Shown piece by piece: positions 51,305 through 51,913 of a stretch of 62,404 nucleotides of DNA. The stretch lies in contig JAIPGO010000010.1 in assembly GCA_021736135.1 (NCBI GenBank), forward strand, positions 1 through 62,404, in the 5' to 3' direction. The number at the start of each line of letters is the position of its first letter. The stretch's first letter is position 1. The notes below the pieces were generated by a model that saw only the letters and a list, made by a program, of their open reading frames with translations, was not told where the DNA came from and made no database searches. Made by a program: the position numbers and the translations under genes. Source of the stretch: Candidatus Cloacimonadota bacterium. GTDB taxonomy: Bacteria > Cloacimonadota > Cloacimonadia > Cloacimonadales > TCS61.

Positions 51305-51402
51305 TCCATCCATAATCCATAATCCATAATCCATAATCCTCAATCCTTAATCTCTTCAACTCTCTTCAAGTCCATAATCCATAATCCTCAATCCTTAATC
51401 TA
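51305..51402. repeat. 8-nt-period array, 3' side of four-helix-bundle gene
   Basis: Repeated CATAATCC (four exact units at 51310-51338) with variants AATCCTCA, AATCCTTA and TCTCTTCAA spacers. It runs from just upstream of malG to the stop codon of the four-helix-bundle gene. Confidence 0.9.
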
Positions 51403-51756
51403 TTCAATTCCCTTCATCTTCTTAATTATCTTAACCAGTAATCCAATTAAGACATCAATATCACCTATAACGCTCTTATACTGTTCCTCTGTCAAAAACT
51501 CAGTTTTGTTTAGAAGCTCCAGCCAGTAACCAGTCTCATTAGCTTCTTTTAAAGCAACTCCCATTTTGTGAATAAAGTCCGCTTTACTTTCACCACATTC
51601 AGCCTCTCTGATCATCGCCCCAATAGCAGTTCCACTCCGCAAGACCTGTTTAGAAAGAACATATTCCTTCTTTTCACTACAAAGGTACTTATACAGATTA
51701 ATGATCCTAACAGCAAAATCAAAACTTCGATCTCGAACCTCATTCTTCTTCTTCAT
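51400..51756 (-). CDS. Four-helix-bundle protein (S23/Avd-like, PF05635 type)
   Basis: A 118-aa all-helical protein with the family pattern: SFDFAVRIINLYKYL, SKQVLRSGTAIGAMIREAECGESKADFIHKMGVALKEANETGYWLELL and a final amphipathic helix. The family includes proteins encoded in 23S rRNA intervening sequences and the Avd accessory protein of diversity-generating retroelements; most stand-alone members have no known role. It interrupts the malEF-malG gene pair, is bordered on both sides by the same repeat family, and the repeat itself supplies its GAGG ribosome-binding site. No reverse transcriptase is nearby. Confidence 0.88.
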   Translation of the reverse strand: MKKKNEVRDRSFDFAVRIINLYKYLCSEKKEYVLSKQVLRSGTAIGAMIREAECGESKADFIHKMGVALKEANETGYWLELLNKTEFLTEEQYKSVIGDIDVLIGLLVKIIKKMKGIE

Positions 51757-51761
51757 AAAAA

Positions 51762-51913
51762 AATCCTCAATCTCTTCACGTCCTTAATCCTTAATCTCTT
51801 CCCATCCATAATCCTTAATCCATAATCCTTAATCTCTTCCCATCCATAATCCTTAATCCTCAATCCATAATCTCTTCAAGTCCTTAATCCTTAATCCATA
51901 ATCCTTAATCTCA
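51762..51913. repeat. 8-nt-period array, 5' side of four-helix-bundle gene
   Basis: About 150 nt of TAATCCTT, TAATCCAT and CTCTTCCCA-type units, running exactly from the malEF stop codon (51914-51916) to the four-helix-bundle start. The segments near 51801-51835 and 51838-51860 are near duplicates. Confidence 0.9.

Follow-up and report, generated by a model that had tools for sequence, protein, structure and literature searches.

The window analysed here is a stretch of 62,404 nt from the genome of a Candidatus Cloacimonadota bacterium (our genome G000, contig C114), and the block at 51301-51912 within it is an insertion. We consider it probable that this block is a copy of a small cassette that is mobile, has no transposase, and consists of a standalone IVP gene with short-period repeat arrays as its travelling ends. 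For the class of such cassettes, we observe that the arrays accompany the gene in many phyla, that the two ends of one cassette match each other, that the sites are unrelated, and that the insertions lie in sense in operons. The mobility of the class is well supported; what we infer from these observations is how insertion happens and what the protein does. IVP cassettes with short-period array ends are widespread and apparently undescribed: a literature search, with subscription journals outside its coverage, found no description of a general link between IVP genes and flanking arrays, the one exception being an unexplained heptamer in the 23S insert of Coxiella.

The gene (51400-51756, minus strand) encodes a protein of 118 aa (MKKKNEVRDRSFDFA...) of the IVP/S23 four-helix-bundle family. 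In a Pfam scan it matches PF05635 with E=2e-26 (92.5 bits against a curated cut-off of 33.8), and it matches TIGR02436 with E=1e-29 (102.5 bits against a cut-off of 24). The AlphaFold2 model (pLDDT 95) has four helices that form the predicted bundle, and structure comparison gives TM-scores of 0.9 to the solved S23 protein 2RLD (BT_0352), which is 62% identical to the window protein, about 0.8 to 2GSC (Xcc0516), and about 0.7 to the Avd structure 4DWL. The entries 2RLD and 2GSC hold five chains each, and Xcc0516 is a published homopentamer; neither a function nor a genomic context has been described for them. Upstream lies a fusion of malE and malF (solute-binding protein and permease, 762 aa; 51914-54202, minus strand) and downstream the malG permease gene (278 aa; 50448-51284, minus strand), both from the list of open reading frames. 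Orthologues of malG in five relatives are 77-88% identical, and the fused malEF gene stays beside malG in relatives. The sequence-only reading had placed an S23/Avd-type gene between malEF and malG, and the two profile matches, the predicted fold and the reading frames bear this out. The IVP frame is the sole gene of the block, with no transposase or recombinase beside it. PADLOC, PHROGs and Rfam gave no match; for Rfam, no RNA family matched in 50200-52200.

The arrays flanking the gene were delimited with TRF and a lag-7 scan, and both have a period of 7. The 3′ array (51301-51401, minus strand) has the gene-sense units GGATTAT, GGATTAA and GGATTGA and a lag-7 identity of 0.93. The 5′ array (about 51760-51912, minus strand) has the units GGATTAA and GGATTAT and is broken up by GATGGGAAGAGATT-type variants. 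Read on the plus strand the units are TCCATAA and TCCTTAA, with periods of 24, 38 and 48 nt superposed. The two arrays have the same orientation, that is, they are direct repeats, which is atypical for the class. They fill nearly all the space between the malG start (51284) and the IVP stop, and between the IVP start and the malEF stop codon, which directly adjoins the 5′ array (51914 against 51912). The earlier description of arrays on both sides with hardly any spare bases is therefore accurate, but the 8-nt period that it gave them is not. It was also right that the repeat unit supplies the ribosome-binding site: a GAGGA Shine-Dalgarno-like motif (51764-51768, minus strand), 7 nt before the start codon, lies in the last repeat unit.

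Evidence for insertion comes from empty sites, which the sequence-only reading had proposed to look for in close relatives. In three of them (G019, G004 and G002, with malG 79-87% identical) the malEF stop and the malG start are separated by 8-11 nt, with neither the gene nor an array between them, and thus the block in the window is an insertion. In G095 this junction holds a short array, built of a different unit, and no IVP gene. A second case is found within one strain, Nostoc sp. C052. Its plasmid pC052_A carries (ATTCGTA)n-IVP-(TTACGAA)n, and its plasmid pC052_D has the same region with the cassette absent and no array; the flanks of the two are 94% identical on the left and 100% on the right. 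The cassette in pC052_A took the place of about 197 bp, and there is no target duplication at the junctions of this one base-resolved pair, the relatives of the window being too diverged to judge. The suggestion of an inserted cassette thus stands on these empty junctions together with the filled and empty Nostoc plasmids.

Arrays of this kind are not unique to the insertion site. In 284 kb of sampled contigs of G000 we counted 44 period-7 arrays (about one per 6.4 kb), 36 of them intergenic, against zero once the same sequence was shuffled; few arrays have other periods, except 14. Since 38 of the 44 have no IVP gene nearby, arrays are able to exist alone, and the association of gene and array is visible only by comparison with other genomes. 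Two such IVP-free stretches lie in the window, also by TRF and lag-7 scan: period-7 arrays of GGATTAA and then GTGAGAC downstream of malG (50376-50448, minus strand), and one of unit AGTGAAC (50291-50330, no strand assigned). At the junction downstream of malG the IVP-free unit is of the GTGAGAC type in G000 and G019, and ATTATGA in G004, so that the unit differs between sister species; a comparison of window 50291-50448 with L260-L262 shows a gene-less inverted array pair there in G019. We considered whether IVP-free arrays are hairpin elements of the MITE kind and rejected it (6 of 38 have an inverted partner, 4.3 expected), as we did a density of solitary arrays that tracks the number of IVP genes (8 arrays in 214 kb of IVP-bearing genomes, 4 in 105 kb of IVP-free ones).

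As for the other IVP genes of G000, all except the copy in a diversity-generating retroelement (DGR) have short-period repeats nearby by eye. The clearest loci are L001-L004, each with its own unit, and L005 is a weak, atypical IVP match. Longer relatives of about 190 aa occur at L006, L007 and L008 (contigs C125 and C59); L006 and L008 are bounded on either side by inverted TAAGTCC/GGACTTA repeats with no clean period, and the reading frame of L007 is interrupted by a TGA.

The comparison with other genomes used 80 IVP loci from Bacteroidota, Pseudomonadota, Myxococcota, Chlorobiota, Nitrospirota, Planctomycetota, Chloroflexota and others, with the flanks of other genes at the same loci as controls. 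It takes the suggested test for co-occurrence of gene and repeats beyond the genome of the window, and it is positive: a flank of period 7 is present at 63 of the 78 scored loci, while the controls show this period in 12 of 313 flanks (3.8%). Among periods up to 15 only 7 and its multiple 14 stand out, and there is nothing at 4-6 or 8-13. The same anatomy is also found on plasmids of Cyanobacteriota, Spirochaetota, Bacteroidota, Chloroflexota and Bacillota (Clostridia). The repeat unit differs from locus to locus, and yet within a locus the array upstream of the gene matches the one downstream, usually as its inverted copy. An upstream array scores on average 18.7 against its own inverted downstream array and 10.0 against foreign partners, and the best of 10,000 permutations reaches 11.8. 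A degenerate unit, ARTKRWN, is recovered independently from upstream-sense and from downstream-antisense arrays, above a column-permuted null. By a strict rule about a third of IVP loci show no clear array, and many of those have short ones by eye. The arrays belong to the IVP gene and not to the site. We also considered the arrays as designed stop signals in three frames, as 61 of 80 upstream arrays stop all frames; base composition accounts for most of these stops, since column-permuted units give nearly equal stop density. Two IVP genes of human-gut phages (L302 and L303) lack heptamers; upstream of them are longer palindromic repeats (TATATCAC...GTGATAT-like), perhaps another type of array.

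The period of the array goes with the protein. Of 197 IVP genes, 103 have 7 as their best flank period, 38 have 8, 3 have 6 and 3 have 9. Under a stricter period rule, the IVP protein tree requires 14 changes of period, against 30.3 after shuffling; within the phylum of the window it requires 10, against 21.8, where the lowest of 1000 shuffles gives 16. Moreover, because single genomes (G032, G061, G043, G041) hold IVP subfamilies of different period, the period is not set by the host. This agreement between period and tree shows linkage, as gene and array are inherited together. Along with the association over many phyla and the matched arrays of each locus, it upholds the earlier suggestion of a repeat-dependent element. 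The protein may itself be specific for the period, but the agreement with the tree would also arise simply because gene and array are passed on as a unit.

Evidence for movement comes from copies as well as from empty sites. Of the 125 genomes that represent the phylum, 100 carry IVP genes, with a maximum of 30 per genome. Pairs of near-identical cassettes (88-96%, arrays included) occupy different sites in G071, in G009/G093, in G119 and in G022; the two in G071 lie 5 kb apart, and G009 and G093 have copies in common. No near-identical twin of the window copy was seen, the other copies in G000 being 61-68% identical in amino acids. The protein is under purifying selection, with dN/dS of 0.03-0.31 in 14 IVP pairs with finite dS, several of which are recent copies. 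Compatibility with the reading direction of the host operon, proposed for the window copy, is supported: 144 of 170 IVP copies run in the direction of both neighbours and only 1 is antisense to both, while among control small ORFs the counts are 90 and 19. The gaps to the neighbours are short, with medians of 57 and 43 nt. No IVP gene was found in viral contigs by a pattern scan, and none in E. coli. These cassettes resemble elements of the IS, MITE and REPIN types in being short and multi-copy, in having a terminal inverted structure, and in moving within and between genomes; they differ in having no transposase, no end sequence fixed across the family and, in the one base-resolved case, no target duplication.

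Some of the sites deserve mention. One 13-kb contig (G017:C9; L021, L243, L244) carries eight clustered IVP matches, of which several are fragments, and has the look of a graveyard or hot spot. Cassettes also lie inside defence operons (L277, L298 and L299, on Planktothrix plasmids, and L042, L046, L066 and L307), between drmD and the methyltransferase gene in DISARM and between hsdS and hsdR in type I systems.

The homology of PF05635 with Avd, which has been remarked on before (PMC10053308), provides a control of the same fold. Avd (PF22296) is a four-helix bundle like the window protein, but it adjoins a reverse transcriptase and is mostly array-free. With the same rule we find arrays at 2 of 23 bAvd genes, every one with an RT-like YxDD frame nearby, and at 126 of 197 IVP genes (Fisher p=3e-7). 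The window gene has neither a reverse transcriptase nor a variable repeat alongside: its neighbours are malG and malEF, and a Pfam scan of its protein gave PF05635 only, with no PF22296 match. Genome-wide in G000, the PF22296 match is a copy on contig C130. G000 has two reverse TRANSCRIPTASE genes (RTs), one on C130, in a DGR with an IVP-like avd, and one on C100. The apparent DGR (L009, G000:C130:8853-10074) has the order variable-region gene, avd, reverse transcriptase, and a possible variable region at the end of a formylglycine-enzyme-like gene (GGSWYYNSSYG...). The second RVT_1 domain is at G000:C100:505-1026.

A link to the 23S rRNA inserts, also anticipated by the sequence-only reading, holds by homology. 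In such inserts with an S23p ORF, terminal inverted repeats form a stem that is cut by RNase III, and in the excised Coxiella insert three GACAGAT heptamers and one variant precede the S23p ORF (PMC4990558). The inserts of Leptospira, Coxiella and Brucella thus share with the window copy the protein family, an ORF between terminal repeats and the sense position in a transcribed unit. On the other hand, the window copy lies between protein genes (malG and malEF) and not inside a 23S rRNA gene, and its arrays are longer, direct and stemless (folding z=0.2); no fetched IVP locus contains 23S rRNA motifs. The Coxiella ORF is decaying, whereas the operon copies are under selection. Most other operon cassettes have inverted ends able to form a stem; only in 10 of 113 labelled cassettes are the 10-mers common to both arrays direct ones alone.

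Based on these patterns, we can outline how a cassette might work. It would have no promoter and would be read from the host mRNA. By analogy with the solved relatives, the protein would form a homopentamer, and it may bind the repeat arrays as RNA or as single-stranded DNA. It could then guide re-insertion by replication or repair enzymes of the host, which would leave replacement junctions with no target duplication. Where the arrays are inverted, as they are in most copies, they would pair into an RNA stem and set the cassette apart within the transcript, as happens in 23S rRNA inserts; in the window copy the inverted arm may have been lost or may never have existed. A broader proposal, which we think somewhat less likely than not, is that standalone IVP genes, together with terminal arrays whose period (7 or 8 nt) is specific to the clade, form a new and very widespread class of mobile element in which the pentamer reads its own period and directs insertion into transcribed operons with neither transposase nor RT. 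The ends would be regenerated or co-converted, so that each element has its own matching unit, and the 23S inserts would be a special case.

Other explanations would place the cassette at the RNA level or give it a borrowed enzyme. If it is a selfish insert that RNase III cuts from the transcript by means of its inverted arrays, movement would be rare or incidental. The S23p ORFs in the 23S inserts and the heptamers before them fit this, as does the sense orientation, and duplexes formed by the two arms of one cassette are stronger than those of swapped arms (-50 against -35 kcal/mol). But the window copy and the other direct-only copies cannot form the stem, and neither the conservation of the protein nor the period that follows it is explained, so we regard this as unlikely, if worth keeping in mind. 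That a reverse transcriptase, DGR-like or other, moves the cassette in trans with the IVP protein as an Avd-like RNA chaperone is the least credible of the alternatives. The similarity of the folds and the two RTs of G000 speak for it. However, no RVT_1 domain is found in G121 (22 IVP genes, 96% complete) or G116 (30 IVP genes, 92%), nor in G009 and G011. As the first two are IVP-rich, the cassettes do not need an RT of this family, and the earlier idea of an enzyme acting from elsewhere in the genome is largely refuted as a general requirement, unless an RT outside PF00078 acts.

Alternatively, the arrays could have been there first. Heptamer arrays without IVP genes are known (PMC4679880, PMC4692102): those of Beggiatoaceae (TAACTGA), of Xanthomonas and Nostoc (GGGAATC, GGGGATT) and the cyanobacterial STRR are likewise 7-nt tandem arrays in gene junctions, but their unit is nearly fixed per genome, while in IVP cassettes it varies per element. 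IVP genes might thus use host arrays as landing pads, inserting into them or recombining between them, as the many IVP-free junction arrays of G000, the array alone in G095, and the direct arrays of the window (as expected from insertion into one array) would suggest. This reading, already weakened by the array-free empty sites in the three relatives and the Nostoc sister plasmid, seems improbable to us: cassette ends are usually inverted, the period is tied to the protein lineage and varies within one genome, and some IVP-bearing relatives have almost no arrays besides those at their IVP genes. Very improbable is an ordinary small operon gene whose poorly constrained intergenic flanks later acquired arrays by slippage of DNA polymerase. 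In many bacteria no long simple repeats are commoner than heptamers, and slippage has been proposed as their origin, according to work cited in PMC4679880; solitary arrays are common in G000. But the low rate in control flanks, the matched inverted ends and the period result already contradict it, and it predicts neither the period of 8 in other IVP clades of one genome nor array-poor Avd genes in DGRs.

Structures of IVP/S23 proteins have been solved since 2006 with no function assigned. A partnership of gene and repeat over many phyla, with a period tied to the protein lineage, joins this problem to the questions of where the heptamer arrays of bacteria and the 23S rRNA inserts come from, and makes them testable. 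If the mobile-cassette reading is true, it would account for many of the “four helix bundle proteins” found in the middle of operons, restriction-modification and DISARM loci included.

Elsewhere in the window, at the contig edge (62030-62401), there is a tandem repeat of 120 bp (3.1 copies, 92% match) with the look of a TPR-type coding repeat.
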